Below, piece by piece: positions 3,801 through 39,044 of a stretch of DNA of 41,524 bases. The DNA is taken from contig JAEPQF010000014.1 in assembly GCA_017640685.1 (NCBI GenBank), positions 1 through 41,524 of the forward strand, given 5' to 3'. The first letter of the stretch is position 1. The number at the start of each line of letters is the position of its first letter. This stretch comes from Hyphomicrobiales bacterium. GTDB lineage: Bacteria > Pseudomonadota > Alphaproteobacteria > Rhizobiales > HXMU1428-3. The position numbers and the translations under genes are program-made. The notes under the pieces were generated by a model. It was not told the origin of the DNA. It did not search any database and worked only from the letters and a program-made list of their open reading frames with translations.

Positions 3801-4137
3801 TCGTGTTTTTTTCTCTTTCACGGCTGTTCCATGAGCGTAAGCTCTGGGTCTACGAGGTGTGGCATTAAATGCCGGACGCTTTTAATTGTGGTTTAGCTTG
3901 TCCTCTCTTTTAGTGCGGCTTCAGTTTCCTTTTTTGTTCTTCAGATGCCCAATAAGCATCCGCAAAAGCAACCGGGGTTTATTTTCTCTCACGTGCTGTA
4001 ACAAAAAAGCTGTCGCACTGCGAGGGCGCAGTGCTTTAGTTTGCCCATTATCAACCGCGCCATCACCTACATTTTTCGCTCTCAGTAGGTTCGTAGTTTT
4101 GGAGGAGCAAGTAGCTTGTTAAGTTATGTCTCCCGGA
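3801..4137. repeat. Palindromic element cluster 1 (hemY/cobL convergent gap)
   Basis: This 337-base gap between convergent genes is filled with short palindromes. At 3805-3848 is a copy of a second repeat (TTCACGGCT.TTCCATGAGC) also found at 12703-12743. GGCAT/ATGCC pair near 3861-3872. At 3913-3977 a nested unit occurs: an outer CTTCAG arm and GCAACCGGGG enclose a complete inner unit with GATGC (3944-3948) and GCATC (3956-3960). GCACTGCG/CGCAGTGC form a perfect hairpin at 4015-4034. A further unit lies at 4031-4060 (GTGC, TTTA, then a TTTGCCC... arm, ending CGCGC). A reading frame across 3886-4122 is an artefact of these repeats. No separate classical terminator with a T-tract was found. Confidence 0.75.
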
Positions 4138-12702: not shown

Positions 12703-12890
12703 TTTTTTCTCTCACGGCTATTCCATGAGCTGAAGCTCATGGGCCTGCATTTTTTGGTTGTGCTTTAGGTTGCCCATTTGCAACCGCACTATGCGGGGCT
12801 TGGCCCAGGCTGCGCTGGCGCTTCGCCATGTCCCTTAGCCCTTTTTTGTCGTTGTAGTTGTCCACTAACAACTGGACTAGGGCTGAGCTC
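12703..12890. repeat. Palindromic element cluster 2 (cobN-cobO gap)
   Basis: The second copy of the TTCACGGCT-like repeat, here with a perfect hairpin CCATGAGCT/AGCTCATGG (12723-12742), is followed by a textbook unit at 12760-12789: GTGC, unpaired TTTA, GGTTGC, loop CCATTT, GCAACC, GCAC. After a GGCG/CGCC hairpin (12817-12827) comes a nested structure. AGCCC (12837-12841) and GGGCT (12880-12884) enclose AGTTGT, loop CCACTA, ACAACT (12856-12873). No ORF is credible here. The cluster sits between co-oriented cobN and cobO and would be in any read-through message. Confidence 0.75.
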
Positions 12891-12946: not shown

Positions 12947-15900
12947 TTACTCTGCTTTTGAGTATAGTGTTTCTAGATAATGGTAAGCGCTATTGCGTTT
13001 GGGTTTCCAGAGGCCGCGCTCTATAGCTTGGCCAAATTGTTTTGCGATCTCTTCCATAGCGGGTTTATTAGATGTTTGCAAAAACTCTCGCACTTCTTCA
13101 TCAACCAAATAGGCTTCAAACAAGCTTTCAAAGTGGTGTTCTTCAACAGCGTTTGTTAAAGATGCGAAAGCACTGAGGTTGGTGACGGTGGCGAGGATTT
13201 CACTGGCGCCTTTAGAGCCGTGGCGCTGGATGGATTTGATCCATTTAGGATTTGCGGCACGACCGCGGACGATTTTGGCAATCTCTTCGCTTAAGGTTTG
13301 TACCTTTGGATTTTCTGGATTACTGTGATCATTGTGATAAATCTCAGGGGCCTTGCCACTTACGCTTTCAACCGACGCTGAGAGGCCGCCTTCAAATTGA
13401 TAGAAATCTTCACTGTCTAAAATGTCAAATTCTCTGGTGTCTTGGTTATGCACCACTAGGTTGGTTGATTTGAGCAAGGCTTTGAAATGCTCAAGCGCTT
13501 CTTTGCCATCTGTTTCATTTTCTTTTGCCTGGCCATAGGTGTAGCTGCTTGCTTTAATATATTGGTCTGCAAGCTCTTCTCTATCCGTCCATTGGCCTTG
13601 GTGGATCATGTCTTTGAGGCCGGCGCCATAGCTCATGTGAGCGGAACCGAAAATACGTGCTTTGGCTCTCCTATCCGCAACAGGTTCTTCGAGACCTTCT
13701 TTTTGAAGGGTGGCTTTGCGTTTTAAATAGGCTGCGCGCAAAGGGTTGGCGTTTTCATTTTCATCCAATTCAGCAACGGCATTGATAGCGCTTTGCAAGA
13801 GATCGATTTGAGCTGGGAACGCATCTCTGAAAAAGCCAGAAATACGAAGTAAAAGATCAACCCTTGGGCGGTTTAATTCTGACAAGGGAATGATTTCAAA
13901 GCCGGTGACGCGGCGCGAGGCGCTGTCCCAAGTTGGCCGTGTGCCGATGAAGGCAAGGGCTTGGGCGAGATCATCGCCGCCAGTGCGCATGTTGGATGTG
14001 CCCCATGCAGAGAGAGCGATTTGTTTGGGCCATTCGCCATTGGCCTGGGTGTAGGCTTTAATGACCGTTTCTGCTGATTGTTTGCCTAGGCGCCATGCGG
14101 TTTCTGTTGGGATGGTGCGGTTGTCTATGGTGTAGAAGTTGCGCCCTGATGGGAGCACATCTAAGCGGCCACGAGTTGGGGCTCCGGAAGGGCCAGGCTC
14201 AATGAACTTGCCGCCCAAGGCTCTCAAAACGCCATCTAATTCTTTAGAGGCACAGTCTTCTAGGAGTGGGCTTAGATGGGTTTTGATATAATCCAATACG
14301 GGGCTGGTTTCTTTCCAATCTGTATCAGGTTCGTGTGTCCCATTGACGAGTTGCTCGGCAAGAATTTCTAGTCTCTCGACTGTATCACCATTTGTGCGCC
14401 AGGATTGGTCTGTGATTGTTTGCAGAACTTCTGGCTTTGGGCCTTGCCAAGGCGTTGCCATTTCAGTGATTAAAGGATCAAAATTTAAGCACAGATCGTT
14501 TGCAAGGGCGCGCAGAATTGATTGATGCTCAGTTTTTGCTGTGCTGATAATTTCGCCTTCTTCTTTTCTGATTTCTCCGCGGGGGAGCCTTGTTAACGCT
14601 AAGAGCAGATTGGTTTTTTGCTCGTTCTTTGGTGCTTCGCCGAAGATGTGCAAGCCATCTCTGATTTGAAGTTCTTTTAATTCACAGAGGAAATTGTCGA
14701 GCTTTTGTAGTTTGGTGTCATCGCAATCGGTATCTTTAATATCGCAATCTTTTGATAGCCCCATGGATTGAGCGAGGTTGATAATGTCTTCACCCAACAG
14801 TTTCGTGCGTCTTGGGTCTACGCCGGCAGCTTCGTAATATTCATCGACCAGACATTCTAGATCTTTTAACGGGCCGTAGCTCTCTGCTCTCGTTAGCGGC
14901 GGTGTCAGGTGATCAATGATGACGGCATTAGTACGTCGTTTGGCTTGGGCGCCTTCGCCAGGGTCGTTGACAATAAAGGGATAAATATGAGGGGTTGGCC
15001 CAAGGATGGCTTCAGGCGCGCAAGACTTGCTGAGCGCAAGTGCTTTGCCGGGGAGCCATTCTAAGTTGCCATGTTTGCCCATATGGATGATGGCATCCAT
15101 TTTAAACTGGTCTCGCAGCCAAAAGTAAAAAGCGAGATATTCATGAGTTGGTGGGATGGTAGCATCATGGTGTGAGAGCTTGGCATCTAAGCCGCTGCCG
15201 CGCCCAGGTTGCACGCCAACGATTATACCCCCAAGTGAAATGGTGCGGATGAGAAAGCTGTTATCTTCAGTAATAAATGAAGGGTCTTTTTCTGGCAGTC
15301 CCCATCGGTCTACAATCTCATCTTTGAAGGTTTCATCGAGAGTGTTCCAGGCCTTTAAGTAATTAGTTAATGAGTAGTGATGCCATTTCGATTTATCTGC
15401 TGTGGCGTGTTGTAATTTCTTTATGAGCTCATCGCCGGTTTCAGGAATGGAGTTGAGCTCATAACCTTCTTTCTTCATTGCTTCTAAAAGCTTGATGGTG
15501 CCAGCCGGAGTATCTAGCCCGACGCCGTTGGCAATGCGGCCATCATTTGAAGGGTAGTTTGATAAGATAAGAGCGACCTTGCGGTTTTCAATTTTTGTGT
15601 TTTGTAGTTTGGTCCAGCTTGTAGCTAATTGCGCAACGAACTTTGTTCGGCTCGGTTCAGCTTTATGACCAACAAGTGAGGTCTCTACATTTTCATCTCT
15701 GCCGAAATCTGATTTGAATGAGATTGCTCTTGTGGTGATGCGGCCATCGATCTCGGGTAGGGTGACATTCATGGCGATGTCTCTGGAAATGAGCCCTCTT
15801 GGGTTCTCAGCCCATGTGTCTTTATTTGAGCCTGAAAGAATGGCCTGGAATACCGGTGTTTCGGACCTATCAAGGATTGTGCCTTGCCAGTCTGTGCCTG

Positions 15901-16852
15901 GTTTTGAGATTGCAAAGCTGGTGGTGTTGATGATGGTCGCTGGTTTTGCGTCTTTGAAAATGTCAGCGATGATGTCTTTGGCGACCTGATCTTTTAAGCT
16001 GCTTGCGAAAATGGGAAGTGGGTTTAGGCCTTCTTCTTGCAGATCTTTGATGAGTTGATCGATGGGCTCTAGATCACCTGATTGCAGTAAAGCGCGGTAG
16101 AAGGTGATTGAGCAAACTTGTTTGTACTTCAGTTGCCCACCAGCAACCGCACTATTGATTTTTGATAAATCCCAATGCGATTTAATATCATCAATTGATT
16201 TGATTGTGCTCCCTGGCCAATAGATACCGGCTTTAGGCAGTGGCTGAGCAGGGAGTGGTTTGGTGATTTTTTCAGGCTCGATAAGATGTGCGCAGTGGTT
16301 TAGGAAATTGCTGTAGTTCTCTGGGCCGCCTTCAACCAGGTATGACCAGAGCTGGTCTGTTGTTTCCCCGCTTATGGTTGAGTAGGCATCTAAGGTTTCA
16401 TCTTTATATGCGGAGCCAGACATAACCGCGAGCTTGATATTTTCACCTCTGCAAAGACGGGTGAGTTCATCAAGGCCATATTGCCAATAAGACGGGCCAC
16501 CAAGTACACGCACGATGATGAGTTTGGCGTGTTTTAAGGTTTGCTCGATATAAAGATCAACAGAGTAATTGTGATTGAGGTTGAGCAAATTGGCCAGCCT
16601 AAGAGATTCTTTTGGTCCCTTCAGTTGCTCTTTTTTATTGCCTTCAGATGCCGACAATGCATCCGGCTTAGCAACCGGGGCGTGATGACCGTTAGACTGA
16701 GTGCTTTGTCGAATCTGTGAATAGGCTTTTGCAAGGCCGGCAATTTCTGTGTCAGCAGATGTGAGCACGACGATATCGCCCGGCGTTTGGGCCAGGTCAA
16801 TTGGGTCTTTGCCGTCGTCTATACCGCCAGCTTGTGCCGTCAATAAATGCAA
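12947..16852 (-). CDS. cobN: Cobaltochelatase large subunit CobN, with two in-frame repeat insertions
   Basis: Large subunit of the ATP-dependent aerobic cobaltochelatase (with CobS/CobT chelatase subunits elsewhere) that inserts Co2+ into hydrogenobyrinic acid a,c-diamide. Motifs: HMGKHGNLEWLPGK (near residue 595) and GGDDLAQALAFIGTRP to PRVDLLLRISGFFRD (near 950). The start is proposed as TTG at 16852: GGAG lies 6 bases upstream and the protein then begins MHLLTAQ, as usual for CobN. The ATG at 16864 contributes that GGAG and would give 1305 residues. Two palindromic elements lie in frame, at residues 58-79 and 234-243, in segments that look like surface loops between conserved blocks (before SLRLANLLNL, and before ITFYRALLQSGD). 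Protein function is probably retained, because the flanking motifs are intact. cobO and cobQ follow. Confidence 0.94.
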   Translation of the reverse strand: MHLLTAQAGGIDDGKDPIDLAQTPGDIVVLTSADTEIAGLAKAYSQIRQSTQSNGHHAPVAKPDALSASEGNKKEQLKGPKESLRLANLLNLNHNYSVDLYIEQTLKHAKLIIVRVLGGPSYWQYGLDELTRLCRGENIKLAVMSGSAYKDETLDAYSTISGETTDQLWSYLVEGGPENYSNFLNHCAHLIEPEKITKPLPAQPLPKAGIYWPGSTIKSIDDIKSHWDLSKINSAVAGGQLKYKQVCSITFYRALLQSGDLEPIDQLIKDLQEEGLNPLPIFASSLKDQVAKDIIADIFKDAKPATIINTTSFAISKPGTDWQGTILDRSETPVFQAILSGSNKDTWAENPRGLISRDIAMNVTLPEIDGRITTRAISFKSDFGRDENVETSLVGHKAEPSRTKFVAQLATSWTKLQNTKIENRKVALILSNYPSNDGRIANGVGLDTPAGTIKLLEAMKKEGYELNSIPETGDELIKKLQHATADKSKWHHYSLTNYLKAWNTLDETFKDEIVDRWGLPEKDPSFITEDNSFLIRTISLGGIIVGVQPGRGSGLDAKLSHHDATIPPTHEYLAFYFWLRDQFKMDAIIHMGKHGNLEWLPGKALALSKSCAPEAILGPTPHIYPFIVNDPGEGAQAKRRTNAVIIDHLTPPLTRAESYGPLKDLECLVDEYYEAAGVDPRRTKLLGEDIINLAQSMGLSKDCDIKDTDCDDTKLQKLDNFLCELKELQIRDGLHIFGEAPKNEQKTNLLLALTRLPRGEIRKEEGEIISTAKTEHQSILRALANDLCLNFDPLITEMATPWQGPKPEVLQTITDQSWRTNGDTVERLEILAEQLVNGTHEPDTDWKETSPVLDYIKTHLSPLLEDCASKELDGVLRALGGKFIEPGPSGAPTRGRLDVLPSGRNFYTIDNRTIPTETAWRLGKQSAETVIKAYTQANGEWPKQIALSAWGTSNMRTGGDDLAQALAFIGTRPTWDSASRRVTGFEIIPLSELNRPRVDLLLRISGFFRDAFPAQIDLLQSAINAVAELDENENANPLRAAYLKRKATLQKEGLEEPVADRRAKARIFGSAHMSYGAGLKDMIHQGQWTDREELADQYIKASSYTYGQAKENETDGKEALEHFKALLKSTNLVVHNQDTREFDILDSEDFYQFEGGLSASVESVSGKAPEIYHNDHSNPENPKVQTLSEEIAKIVRGRAANPKWIKSIQRHGSKGASEILATVTNLSAFASLTNAVEEHHFESLFEAYLVDEEVREFLQTSNKPAMEEIAKQFGQAIERGLWKPKRNSAYHYLETLYSKAE
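16124..16152. repeat. Palindromic element inside cobN (single)
   Basis: Unit GTAC, unpaired TTCA, GTTGC, loop CCACCA, GCAAC, C, GCAC. On the coding (minus) strand it reads in frame as AVAGGQLKYK, at CobN residues about 234-243. The same frame (GGG CAA CTG AAG) is used by the copy at the C-terminus of the secreted protease (37818-37845), giving the shared peptide GGQLK. Confidence 0.85.
16617..16679. repeat. Nested palindromic element inside cobN
   Basis: The outer unit pairs CCC, GTTGC (16624-16628) with GCAAC (16671-16675), GGG. In its loop lies a T-run and a complete inner unit: GCC, TTCA, GATGC (16647-16651), loop, GCATC (16659-16663), C, GGC. The 63 bases are exactly 21 codons, so the frame of cobN is preserved. 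They encode a hydrophilic loop (for example SASEGNKKEQLKG) between the AGLAKAYSQ and SLRLANLLNL blocks. Confidence 0.85.
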
Positions 16853-16864
16853 AAAAAGCTCCAT

Positions 16865-17171
16865 TTTAGTTGCGCTTCAGATGCCCACAAAGCATCCGCG
16901 CTATTTCGAGTTTGAGGGCGTTAAGGCTGAATTTTTAACCCCTCAAATATGTCTTATATTCCACGGGCCTAAAAATTCACCCTTGCCTACTCACGAACAA
17001 AATCTGAAACTTTTTTGGATCGAGCTTTGAGGCTGGAAAATAGAAAGATTAGGTTTAATTGATAGGTGGAAGTTTGTCTATTGTATAGCATGGATAATTT
17101 TGATTAATCTTGAGGGTAAAGTTTTGCCATTTTAAGGTGATTATATACATGGAAATAAGAAGGGTAATTAA
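16865..17171. other. cobN upstream gap with palindromic element and hairpin
   Basis: A single repeat unit fills 16872-16901 (GCGC, TTCA, GATGC, loop CCACAAA, GCATC, C, GCGC), within 20 bases of the proposed cobN start. A second strong inverted repeat lies at 16912-16946: TTGAGGG, a bulged C, GTTAA, paired with TTAAC and CCCTCAA. Both would be in the 5' leader of cobN if transcription starts upstream of them. I looked for the conserved B12-box (GCCACTG) on both strands here and did not find it. The remainder, to 17171, is AT-rich and must also hold the promoter of the plus-strand gene at 17172. Confidence 0.6.
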
Positions 17172-26443: not shown

Positions 26444-26658
26444 GCGCTTTAGATGTCTCTTTTTAGTGCGCCTTTAGGTTGCCCACAAGCAACCGGCGCG
26501 AAGCATCCGCAGATTTTCTTTTGTGCTTCAGATGTCTTTTTTAATACCCCTTCAGATTGCCCATTAGCAACCGGGGCTAAGCATCCGTACATTTTTATTA
26601 GCGCTTTAGACACTTTCTTATCTCCCTTTCGGTTTTCTAATAAAAACCGATCTAAAGC
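26444..26658. repeat. Palindromic element cluster 3, three nested units upstream of murJ
   Basis: This is the main content of the 401-base gap between murJ and oxyR. Unit 1 (26444-26510): outer GCGC, TTTA, GATGTC and GCATC, CGC enclose an inner unit GCGCC, TTTA, GGTTGC, CCACAA, GCAACC, GGCGC. Unit 2 (26523-26589): outer GTGC, TTCA, GATGTC and GCATC enclose CCCC, TTCA, GATTGC, loop, GCAACC, GGGG. Unit 3 (26603-26658): GCTTTAGA/TCTAAAGC enclose CGGTTTT, CTAATA, AAAACCG. An open frame across 26453-26785 is produced by the repeats (it would contain PQATGAKHP and PLATGAKHP) and is not called as a gene. The rest, 26659-26825, shows nothing distinct. Confidence 0.85.
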
Positions 26659-27716: not shown

Positions 27717-28046
27717 CAGTCTTTCTTATCATAAATGATGAAAAAATCAATTAGACCTTATAATACGATTTGCGCATGATTTCATCATTAATAATTATCA
27801 ATTGGTGATTTCAAATTTTTTATTTGAGAGTGATGAGGTTCTTTAAATATGAAGACACTCCTTTTGAATTCAAAAAGAGTGTCTTCATATTTTTGGTTTC
27901 AATTTGTCCAGGACATTTATTTAAAAAGTCTCGCCCTGTTTGTAGGTGATCATTATTTTGCGTTAATAGAGGTATAATGAGATCAGGGCGAGATCAGGGG
28001 GTAAATCATGGAACTTTAAGCCTTAAAGACTTATTTGTTCTTCTTA
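27717..28046. other. Intergenic region upstream of oxyR with two strong inverted repeats
   Basis: A 330-base gap without a credible ORF. The first part is AT-rich and should contain the oxyR promoter. Two inverted repeats follow: a nearly perfect palindrome at 27845-27893 and 10-base arms TCTCGCCCTG/CAGGGCGAGA at 27929-27938 and 27984-27993. Between the latter arms, GATCATTAT and ATAATGAGATC can pair further with a two-base bulge. It also holds a TATAAT sequence, without a clear -35 box. Both could be parts of small RNAs or 3' ends of the gene at 28047. Confidence 0.5.
27845..27893 (+). terminator. Long hairpin followed by T-run (possible terminator)
   Basis: AATATGAAGACACTC pairs with GAGTGTCTTCATATT, and the loop CTTTTGAATTCAAAAA is itself nearly palindromic, so the whole is a 22-base stem with one mismatch. 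TTTTT follows on the plus strand. There is no annotated plus-strand gene upstream, so if it terminates transcription in that direction the transcript would be a short RNA starting within 27720-27840. On the minus strand the T-run is weaker, but it could also end the transcript from 28047-28793. Confidence 0.55.
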
Positions 28047-31874: not shown

Positions 31875-32110
31875 TTTAGTTTGTGCTTCAGATGCCCACT
31901 AGGCATCCGCACTGTTTGTTTGCGCTTCAGGTTGCCTTTATTTGTTTTAGATGCCCACAAAGCATCCGCAAGTTGCAACCGCGCTGTTTAAGTAATGCTT
32001 CAGATGTCTTCTCTGTGTTTCAAAAGCCCTACTGAGCATACGTGAGAAGCACCTTCGCTGTTTGCTAAATGTTTCAGACGAATTGCTTCGTCTTGATGTG
32101 GTAAATTTAA
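31875..32110. repeat. Palindromic element cluster 4 upstream of the His/Tyr-rich gene
   Basis: A simple unit at 31883-31912 reads GTGC, TTCA, GATGCC, CACTA, GGCATC, C, GCAC. A nested unit follows at 31922-31984: outer GCGC, TTCA, GGTTGC and GCAACC, GCGC enclose TTTTAG-ATGC-CCACAAA-GCATC. Degenerate copies continue to about 32060, and AGACGAA-TTGC-TTCGTCT forms a perfect hairpin at 32076-32093. The remaining gap to the next ORF (32111-32411) is described separately. Confidence 0.8.
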
Positions 32111-36390: not shown

Positions 36391-37656
36391 ATGTCTAAAA
36401 ACCAAAAATCACAATTTATCGAAAATGTTGAGCTTGCCGCTAAACTGCATAAATCGGTTATTGCGCCAACGCCTTTGCAGCGTAATGCTTTTCTCTCTAA
36501 ACGCTATAGTGCTGATATTTATCTCAAGCGAGAAGATTTAACGCCAGTTCGAAGTTATAAAATTCGAGGTGCGTTTAATTTTTTCAGGAAAGCTATCTTG
36601 GAAAATGGCAAGAACCAACAATTTGTTTGCGCGTCGGCTGGTAACCATGCGCAAGGTTTTGCTTTTGCTTGTCAGCATTTTGGTGTGAAGGGCGTTATTT
36701 TCATGCCAGTGACAACGCCGCAGCAAAAACAAGAAAAAACAATGGTTTTTGGTGGTGAGCAAGTTGAGATTAAAATTTTTGGTGACTTTTTTGACCAATG
36801 TTACAAAGCGGCTATCTCTTATGCGACTGAGACAGGGGCAGTTATGGTGCCACCATTTGATCATGAAGATATCATTGAAGGGCAAGCTAGTGTGGGGTTA
36901 GAGATTGTTTCGCAAATTGATAAAGCTATTGATCTTCTTATATTGCCTGTTGGTGGCGGTGGATTGGCCGCTGGTGTAGCTGAAGTGATGAAGGTTTGTT
37001 CTCCCAAAACTGAGATGATTTTTGTTCAACCAGCTGGTGCACCAAGCTTTAAAGAAAGCCTTATACAAGGAGAGCGGGTTTTATTAGACCGTGTTGATAA
37101 TTTCGTTGATGGCGCTGCTGTTGGGCAAATGGGGCAATTAAATTTTGATCTGTTAAAAGACACTGACCCGAATTCAGTGATGCTTATTCCTGAAGATCAT
37201 TTATGTGAGACCATTATTGAGATGCTCAATGTTGAAGGGATTGTTTTAGAGCCAGCTGGAGCTTTAGAAGTTGATGCCCTTCGCTGGATACCTAAAGAGA
37301 AATTAAAGGGCAAGACAGTTGTTTGCATAGCTTCTGGTGGGAATTTTGATTTTGAGCGTTTGCCTGAAGTGAAAGAGCGGGCTTTGAAAGCTGCTGGTTT
37401 AAAAAAATATTATCTTATTCGTATGCCGCAGCGCCCGGGAGCATTGCGTGAGCTTTTAGATCTGCTTGGGCCAGATGATGATATTGCCCGTTTTGAGTAT
37501 TTGAAAAAATCAGCTCGAAATTTTGGTACTATTCTCATGGGTGTTGAGACAAAACAAGCAGAGAATTTTATCACTCTTGAAGGACAGCTTGATAAAACAG
37601 GCTATCATATTGAAGACATCACCAATGATGATGTGCTTTCGAGTTTTATTGTTTAG
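36391..37656 (+). CDS. ilvA: Threonine ammonia-lyase (threonine dehydratase) IlvA
   Basis: Deaminates threonine to 2-oxobutanoate in isoleucine synthesis. The PLP-binding Lys is in DLTPVRSYKIRGAFNF, the substrate-binding motif in CASAGNHAQGFAFAC, and the phosphate-binding glycine loop in LLILPVGGGGLAAGV. After about residue 330 comes a C-terminal ACT-like regulatory domain (YYLIRMPQRPGALRELLDLLG). At 421 residues this is the shorter biosynthetic form (one ACT-like module). No obvious ribosome binding site precedes the ATG, and an inverted repeat covers that area. The gene is followed by a palindromic-element cluster shared with the convergent protease gene. Confidence 0.95.
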   Translation: MSKNQKSQFIENVELAAKLHKSVIAPTPLQRNAFLSKRYSADIYLKREDLTPVRSYKIRGAFNFFRKAILENGKNQQFVCASAGNHAQGFAFACQHFGVKGVIFMPVTTPQQKQEKTMVFGGEQVEIKIFGDFFDQCYKAAISYATETGAVMVPPFDHEDIIEGQASVGLEIVSQIDKAIDLLILPVGGGGLAAGVAEVMKVCSPKTEMIFVQPAGAPSFKESLIQGERVLLDRVDNFVDGAAVGQMGQLNFDLLKDTDPNSVMLIPEDHLCETIIEMLNVEGIVLEPAGALEVDALRWIPKEKLKGKTVVCIASGGNFDFERLPEVKERALKAAGLKKYYLIRMPQRPGALRELLDLLGPDDDIARFEYLKKSARNFGTILMGVETKQAENFITLEGQLDKTGYHIEDITNDDVLSSFIV

Positions 37657-37669
37657 CGAGTTGTTCACC

Positions 37670-37845
37670 AGTTACCACTTTTTTTGACGTTCCTTTAGGT
37701 TACTCACCGGTAACCGTTACGCCAAGCACGCTTTTAATTGTTCTTCAGTTGCTGGTTTTTTTAGTTGTTCCTTTAGGTTACCCACCAGTAACCGTCACTA
37801 AAACCGTGCTCCTAATTGTGCTTCAGTTGCCCACCAACAACCGCA
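37670..37845. repeat. Palindromic element cluster 5 (ilvA/protease convergent gap)
   Basis: Three clear units. At 37698-37715: GGTTAC, TCACCG, GTAACC. At 37776-37793: GGTTAC, CCACCA, GTAACC, itself inside a larger structure where GGTTTT (37754-37759) pairs with AAAACC (37800-37805) and AGCACG (37725-37730) with CGTGCT (37805-37810). At 37818-37845: GTGC, TTCA, GTTG, loop, CAAC, CGCA. The last lies in the coding sequence of the protease. TTTA or TTCA precedes each inner stem on the plus strand, as in all other clusters. Confidence 0.85.
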
Positions 37846-39044
37846 TTATTCAATTTGTCGAGTAGTTCTTTTGTTGGTAGGCCGATGGGTGTTAGGTTCA
37901 TTTTTTTCTCAAAGGCATAGATGGCTCTTTTGGTTTGCTTACCAAACTGACCGTCGATCTTACCTCTGTAAAGTTTCAGGGATTTTAGGCGTTCTTGAAC
38001 TTGCTTAAATTGATGAATATTTGTTAGGAGAGTTTCTTTTTGAAATCTCTCTAGGCCTTTTAGGAAAATTTTTGGCTGGACGGCAATGTTTGTTTCTTTG
38101 CCTGTTTTTAGTTTTTTGCGGCTGATGATTTTTCCTGTGAACCGATTGCGCCTGATGCGGAAATGCTCATATTTTAATGAGCCTAGATTAATACCAACGA
38201 CTTTATAATCCGCGCCTTTTTTAACAATAATTGGAGAACCAGATGAGCCTTTGAATGCGTCGCATGTGTGAGGCAAGAGCACGGCTTCTCTTATCATTTT
38301 TCTGCGCTGTTTTTTCATGAAAAAGGTTTTGTTATTGCGCGAGCGAATGCGGCACTTTTTTGAGTAGAGCCGCTCTGACATGTCTTTGTCGCCATGGTAA
38401 CCAATCATGAAGACATCATTCTTCTTTGCGGCTTTTTGTATCTCTCTTATTTTGGAGTTGCTGAATTTAAGTGTTCGTCCTTTGCAGACAGAATGGATTA
38501 ATTTCGTGAAAGCCCAATCTTGTTTTTGTGAATTGAGATTTCGTGCTGCAGCATAATTTCCTGAATAGATAGAGAGGCCCGGCATTTTTTGATGGACATA
38601 TTCCGGATAAGAAATGCGAGGTTTGTATTTGTGATTAAGAGGTGATTTTGTAAGTGCAGGGAGGACAAACATTGTCTTTGCTAAATTGAGGCGTTTGCCA
38701 ACTGTGGGGTTTCGTACAATACAGTGAGCGTTAGTTGCAACTATATTTGGTGCCACACAAAAGGCGGTGCAACGCCATCCTCTTTTACCTGGTTGGCCGA
38801 TCACTCCAACACCAGCGCCGAGCTGGTGGAATTTTTCAGGTAAGCTGGTGCGGTTATCTTTTCCAAGAACCGCTATTTTTTTCACGTGGTCTTGAGATAA
38901 TCCGTTCGGTGTTTTGATAGAGATATTTGAGCTGAGGGATTTTGCGTGGGATGAATTTGAGGAGGAGTTAACTGTTAAAAGACCAAAAAATAAAAGAAAA
39001 AAGGCAAGGCTGATTTTGCTTGTCTTAGATGTTTTATTTTTCAT
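37812..39044 (-). CDS. Secreted trypsin-like serine protease with peptidoglycan-binding domain
   Basis: A 410-residue exported protease. Signal peptide: basic KNKTSKTSK then ISLAFFLLFFGLLTV, with cleavage likely near AKS. The chymotrypsin-fold catalytic triad is visible: His in VAPNIVATNAHCIV (about residue 104), Asp in QKQDWAFTKL (about 175) and Ser in CDAFKGSSGSPIIV (about 267). A C-terminal PG_binding_1-like domain follows (VQERLKSLKLYRGKIDGQFGKQTKRAIY). The last 11 residues (NAVVGGQLKHN) come from a palindromic element, and the stop is at the edge of that element, so the native C-terminus may have been replaced. GGAG lies 8 bases before the ATG. It probably acts in the periplasm or at the cell wall; substrate unknown. 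Confidence 0.88.
   Translation of the reverse strand: MKNKTSKTSKISLAFFLLFFGLLTVNSSSNSSHAKSLSSNISIKTPNGLSQDHVKKIAVLGKDNRTSLPEKFHQLGAGVGVIGQPGKRGWRCTAFCVAPNIVATNAHCIVRNPTVGKRLNLAKTMFVLPALTKSPLNHKYKPRISYPEYVHQKMPGLSIYSGNYAAARNLNSQKQDWAFTKLIHSVCKGRTLKFSNSKIREIQKAAKKNDVFMIGYHGDKDMSERLYSKKCRIRSRNNKTFFMKKQRRKMIREAVLLPHTCDAFKGSSGSPIIVKKGADYKVVGINLGSLKYEHFRIRRNRFTGKIISRKKLKTGKETNIAVQPKIFLKGLERFQKETLLTNIHQFKQVQERLKSLKLYRGKIDGQFGKQTKRAIYAFEKKMNLTPIGLPTKELLDKLNNAVVGGQLKHN

Follow-up and report, generated by a model that had tools for sequence, protein, structure and literature searches.

How does a protease gene come to take its last codons and its stop from a palindromic repeat? The question is raised by a 410-residue protein encoded in a 41,524-nucleotide stretch from a Hyphomicrobiales bacterium (hereafter the window; Table 1), which has a signal-like N-terminal stretch, judged from sequence reading only, and a C-terminus reading ...TKELLDKLNNAVVGGQLKHN. 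An earlier note on this DNA had claimed that the final NAVVGGQLKHN and the TAG stop are supplied by a palindromic element, with the stop using the element's leader, and had expected the peptidoglycan-binding domain to end near ELLDKL. These proposals were borne out. All residues past ELLDKL (NNAVVGGQLKHN; NAVVGGQLKHN) and the TAG lie within the palindromic repeat, whose minus-strand reading codes approximately for NAVVGGQLKHN plus a stop, and the TAG is located in the leader (CTAATTGTGC on the plus strand). The PG_binding_1 match reaches residue 398, which is the final L of ELLDKL, and the profile is full to position 57 of 57.

The copy at the protease end is degenerate and the lowest-scoring among the 13 clear copies in the window. 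A covariance model matched its core on the plus strand with 24.8 bits (E 2e-4 over the window), but its own fold is of low stability (-2.6 kcal/mol, z -0.67), no better than that of shuffled sequences. Its identity as an element therefore rests on the family and not on its own fold; that is, on its sequence and orientation, on the two better copies with which it is clustered, and on the corresponding loci of congeners. A low score, a poor fold and the fact that protease tails vary among orthologues anyway would also be expected if the protein end resembled the repeat by chance and were not a true copy. However, the E value over the window, the 88% identity over 41 nt with a copy in the cobN-like gene, the strand shared with the 12 other copies, the clustering with two of them, and the clear elements at the same place in the congeneric genomes G002 and G003 speak against chance. 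The congener loci already contradict it, and we consider this explanation highly improbable.

The element is about 36-39 nt long and consists of a T-rich leader and a bulged hairpin, with the consensus TTTTAGTTGTGC-TTCA(G)-GNTGC-CCACNA-GCANC-C-GCAC. In a structural alignment of the 13 window copies, the outer stem occurred as GTGC/GCAC, GCGC/GCGC, CCCC/GGGG and other variants, and the inner stem as GTTGC/GCAAC, GATGC/GCATC and GTTAC/GTAAC; the stems were separated by TTCA or TTTA with an optional G, and the loop started with CCAC. Among 54 distinct copies from G002, 91.8% of the pair cells held standard pairs compared with 76% in shuffles, and 71 cells were double-changed compared with 20 in shuffles. 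In this set and in the window set, pairing exceeded that of shuffles and of slid controls. It should be noted that both sets lean towards structure, since Ns were entered into some of the gaps ahead of the window alignment to hold the stems in register, and since the G002 set was found with a model built from that alignment. The reality of the element rests on the repeat family, namely on its shared structure, pairing and double changes.

The protease orthologues of the congeners show both filled and empty sites. In G004 (83% identical) the element is missing here; the protease ends in NIEIHKQKIFKQ, and its stop overlaps the end of the convergent ilvA-like gene. The G002 and G003 proteases (79%) carry the element at the same place and end in NAVKQRLLVGNLKQQ (VGNLKQQ) and SVVQRQLLVGNLKEH (VGNLKEH), respectively. 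Those of G001, G005, G006 and G007 lack the palindrome and have tails of other kinds. Past the same ELL.. motif, element-free orthologues end differently, for example as ..LAEKAKQ in G007 and ..NNKTKQ in G001, their stops falling at that of the convergent ilvA; the ilvA stop region overlaps the protease stop in congeners without elements. In agreement with what the earlier note had predicted for this comparison, the NAVVGGQLKHN tail was found without the palindrome in none of the seven congeners' orthologues. Just downstream of the protease stop in G006, there is a long inverted repeat (TTCCATGGTGAGATTTTTGCATTTTAAATTCACCTGTCAAGG.. and its near reverse complement), which is unlike the element.

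The further claim, that insertion replaced the original protein end and created a new stop, was supported, with two reservations. The element-free G004 protease does end otherwise. However, in a small protein tree G004 grouped with G002 and G003, at a support of 97, with the window species outside, suggesting that G004 lost an older insertion or that insertions took place more than once, which leaves replacement in one simple step unproven. Furthermore, the tail past ELLDKL is unconserved even among element-free orthologues, and thus no functional protease end was demonstrably destroyed; for the same reason the new tail is likely to be neutral. As read from the alignment, the 3' end of the element appears to abut the same codons in all three species that carry one, which favours an old insertion followed by turnover.

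All 13 clear copies in the window lie on the plus strand, where G and T exceed their complements (Table 1). The copy lying immediately upstream of the cobN-like gene has a leader that provides the ATG at the called start of that ORF. The whole window gave no Rfam match at the gathering score, and positions 37500-38000 gave none up to E 1. A 24-bp inverted repeat at 27845-27892, 96% complementary and with no spacer, is possibly a terminator or another hairpin.

Table 1. Positions of genes and repeats in the window.
Feature	Position	Strand	Remarks
Protease ORF	37812-39044	minus	410 aa; Trypsin/Trypsin_2 and PG_binding_1; 3' end within palindromic element
Palindromic element at protease 3' end	37806-37849 (outer limits approximate)	plus	Leader (TAG 37812-37814) and core 37818-37846
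Second copy in protease cluster	37768-37797	plus	GTTAC/GTAAC stem type
Third copy in protease cluster	37690-37719	plus	Between protease and ilvA-like gene
ilvA-like (threonine dehydratase-type) gene	36391-37656	plus	Convergent to protease; function named from sequence
cobN-like gene	12947-16864	minus	CobN name from sequence reading
Copy in cobN-like gene	16124-16152	plus	In-frame 39-nt insertion (13 residues) coding NSAVAGGQLKY; absent from four congeners
Nested pair in cobN-like gene	16617-16680 (inner core 16639-16668)	plus	Part of an in-frame insertion of ~31 residues; absent from four congeners
Copy just upstream of cobN-like gene	16872-16901	plus	Copies at matching place in G007 and G005
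Two copies	3936-4060 (3936-3965, 4031-4060)	plus	Between convergent genes
Copy	12760-12789	plus	Between two codirectional minus-strand genes
Two copies	26444-26578 (26469-26498, 26547-26576)	plus	Each nested within half-sites of another copy
Copy and nested pair	31883-31984 (copy 31883-31912; inner core 31942-31971)	plus	Model matches
Second (multi-hairpin) repeat	3809-3880, 12703-12830		Many more sites in L065-L084, L105-L164

The element was frequent in seven of the eight congeneric genomes and was found in none of 113 genomes of the order outside the genus. Covariance-model matches numbered at least 150 each in G000, G002, G003 and G004, 139 in G007 and about 40 each in G005 and G006, and G001 was nearly copy-free with three weak matches. 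G002 alone held 239 copies at E <0.05 in 1.59 Mb. When genes were called by a simple codon-based method, 255 of 277 copies (~92%) fell between them, though called genes make up ~80% of the sequence. Convergent gaps were the richest, with 1.46 copies per kb, followed by codirectional gaps with 0.83 and divergent gaps with 0.15. Several intergenic sites are common to congeners, suggesting that many copies are old. Nine copies lay within called ORFs, most clearly the two within the window species' CobN, and nine genes were called as ending in an element; five of these overlapped it by 1-3 nt, one by 13 nt, and three spanned the whole core. These three are all the protease, in G000, G002 and G003. 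A protein end written by a full element is thus rare, and the protease is the only locus at which one was observed.

Of the 267 copies examined on five contigs or stretches, 255 (~95%) lay on the G/T-rich strand, and by clusters 137 agreed, 7 disagreed and 2 were mixed; on one contig (G002:C3), where GC skew is near zero, the strand was assigned from TA skew. In both G002 and G004, rpoB and rpsL share a strand with the elements of the contig that they lie on. We presume that the G/T-rich strand is the leading strand, based on skew and these two highly expressed genes and not on a mapped origin. Leading-oriented copies in codirectional gaps ran along transcription in 60 cases and against it in 91, and therefore transcription does not explain the orientation. 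The REP papers retrieved in a search on replication did not contain the term 'leading strand', nor did PMC3733652 contain 'replichore'; most subscription papers were outside this search, which leaves priority for the orientation lock uncertain.

Copies were also found within one another. Nesting between the complementary half-sites of another copy occurred in 17 of 209 cases, compared with 2.0 expected and a maximum of 7 in 500 shuffles, in a test that leaves out complete upstream copies; a looser first test gave 7 versus 3.1, which was not clearly significant. In one nested copy (G002:C1 near 114591, minus strand), both arms have become parts of a single long and nearly perfect hairpin (GTTGCTACTTGCGGATGC..GCATCCGCAAGTAGCAAC), as though one had been templated on the other. 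A second repeat family, about 130 nt long, has multiple variable hairpins between the constant blocks TCTCTCACGG, CTATT, CCTCCGAGGGGCGG, GCCGGGC, GCCATGTCC and ACTCC, and had no Rfam match in the window. It was likewise strand-locked on three G002 contigs (30:1, 27:1 and 24:0). Of the 51 copies of the second repeat in which both anchors are present, 11 held the small element in their first hairpin, in one orientation throughout, and there the gap grew from ~27 to ~63 nt, a net insertion of ~36 nt (the CobN insertion is 39 nt).

A search for a mobilising enzyme in the eight genomes, six of which are at least 94% complete, found no Y1_Tnp (PF01797) in the window's genome and six others, with control genomes positive. 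The only Y1_Tnp proteins of the genus were two in G004:C1, ~3.5 kb apart (L063 1465-2130 and L064 1453-2127), and a RAYT was rejected as the mover because Y1_Tnp was not found in seven of the eight genomes. Reverse transcriptase, present in two genomes only, was also rejected. One Y2_Tnp fragment occurred in G004, and this carries little weight since no control genome gave a match for Y2_Tnp.

We think it probable that the element is a genus-specific REP-like miniature repeat spread by single-stranded hairpin insertion, and that the protease end is a by-product. The hairpin in single-stranded form would insert where the lagging-strand template, which carries the same sequence as the leading strand, is exposed as a single strand, and this would explain both the fixed orientation and the nesting in hairpins. 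The copies that remain are mostly between genes and fewest in divergent gaps, where promoters lie. Where a copy falls across the end of an opposite-strand gene, the frame may stay open through the core, so that the protein gains about 10 residues and takes a TAG or TAA from the leader, as is the case for the protease. Filled and empty sites, in-frame CobN insertions, shared structure, restriction to the genus, copy number, orientation, and nesting in one another and in the second repeat support spread of this kind; against it stand the lack of a Y1 transposase in seven of eight genomes, the fact that movement was never observed, the age of many copies, the assignment of the leading strand from skew and two genes, and the degenerate state of the protease copy.

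Other explanations differ in what they make of orientation and placement. If the repeats were functional polar chromosome signals, KOPS-like or other replication-skewed motifs, selection and not the mode of insertion would hold them in place, consistent with the tracking of replication in ~95% of copies and with paired stems maintained through double changes. However, such signals would hardly be nearly missing from G001, reduced to about 40 copies in G005 and G006, and absent from relatives outside the genus, and the nesting in each other and in the second repeat, like the interruption of CobN, looks like insertion; moreover, a second, different repeat shows the same strand lock. We therefore regard this explanation as unlikely. 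Only slightly less unlikely is a role in RNA, in which the repeats would serve at the ends of genes as terminators or to stabilise mRNA, and the protease would merely end in one. Like published REPs (PMC3733652), the copies are enriched in convergent and depleted in divergent gaps, but this bias is equally expected if insertions near promoters are purged, while the independence of orientation from transcription (60 with versus 91 against), the absence of a terminator-like site in a search of 37600-37900, and the lack of an Rfam match argue against it.

The elements could also be ordinary RAYT-mobilised REPs whose transposase gene was lost or falls in an assembly gap. Their size, copy number and placement are REP-like, loss of RAYT is documented (PMC3733652), and G004 has two Y1 proteins. 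However, Y1_Tnp is lacking in seven of eight genomes despite a completeness of 94% or more in six of the eight, neither a GTAG nor a CGTC tag occurs in a fixed position, and copies stand head-to-tail or nested and not in inverted pairs, which makes this account possible but doubtful. Beyond the single-stranded spread that we favour, a more specific version can be offered only tentatively: a REP-like family apart from GTAG and CGTC REPs would insert in fork orientation, often into hairpins, by means of a mover other than a recognisable Y1 transposase, a route that the second multi-hairpin repeat seems to share.

The protease is a further example of a repeat-written protein end, here with filled and empty congeners, and the family lends itself to testing whether tiny elements spread in a fork-dependent manner, for which eight congeneric genomes, one almost without copies, offer a natural comparison. 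Published GTAG and CGTC REPs occur inside ORFs and at ORF ends and give neighbouring ORFs TAG stops (PMC3733652), so the protease event is of a known type. Like GTAG REPs, the element is a hairpin of 20-40 nt with hundreds of copies, mostly intergenic and in convergent or codirectional gaps, with subfamilies of alternative complementary stems. It differs from them in lacking a fixed-place GTAG/GTRG foot (GTAG occurred within 90 nt in 29 of 267 copies at no fixed position, and GTGG at the foot in at most about 23) and a RAYT with its Y1_Tnp domain in seven of eight genomes, in forming direct or nested arrays and not inverted pairs, and in its ~95% replication orientation.

CGTC REPs, including the Rickettsia palindromic elements, are likewise palindromic, common in Alphaproteobacteria and found in-frame in protein genes, as are the two CobN insertions here, with no dedicated transposase known (PMC3733652). 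The present element lacks their constant CGTC end (CGTC occurred within 90 nt in 48 of 267 copies, mostly as a stem variant, 19 in one), has only ~8% of copies in or at genes, and has another consensus. Lacking the tags and a RAYT, the family is not assigned to GTAG or CGTC REPs, though it is REP-like in behaviour. Compared with IS200/IS605 elements, it is far shorter, no transposase and no IS was found for it, an HUH Y1 transposase being absent from seven of the eight genomes, and the mechanism is one that we infer. What is unusual is replication-locked orientation combined with hairpin nesting without a visible transposase. The hairpin ends of IS608 are recognised as single-stranded DNA and insert into the lagging-strand template, as was likewise proposed for REPs (PMC6006769); given the presumed direction of replication, insertion of this kind would give the element the orientation that it has.
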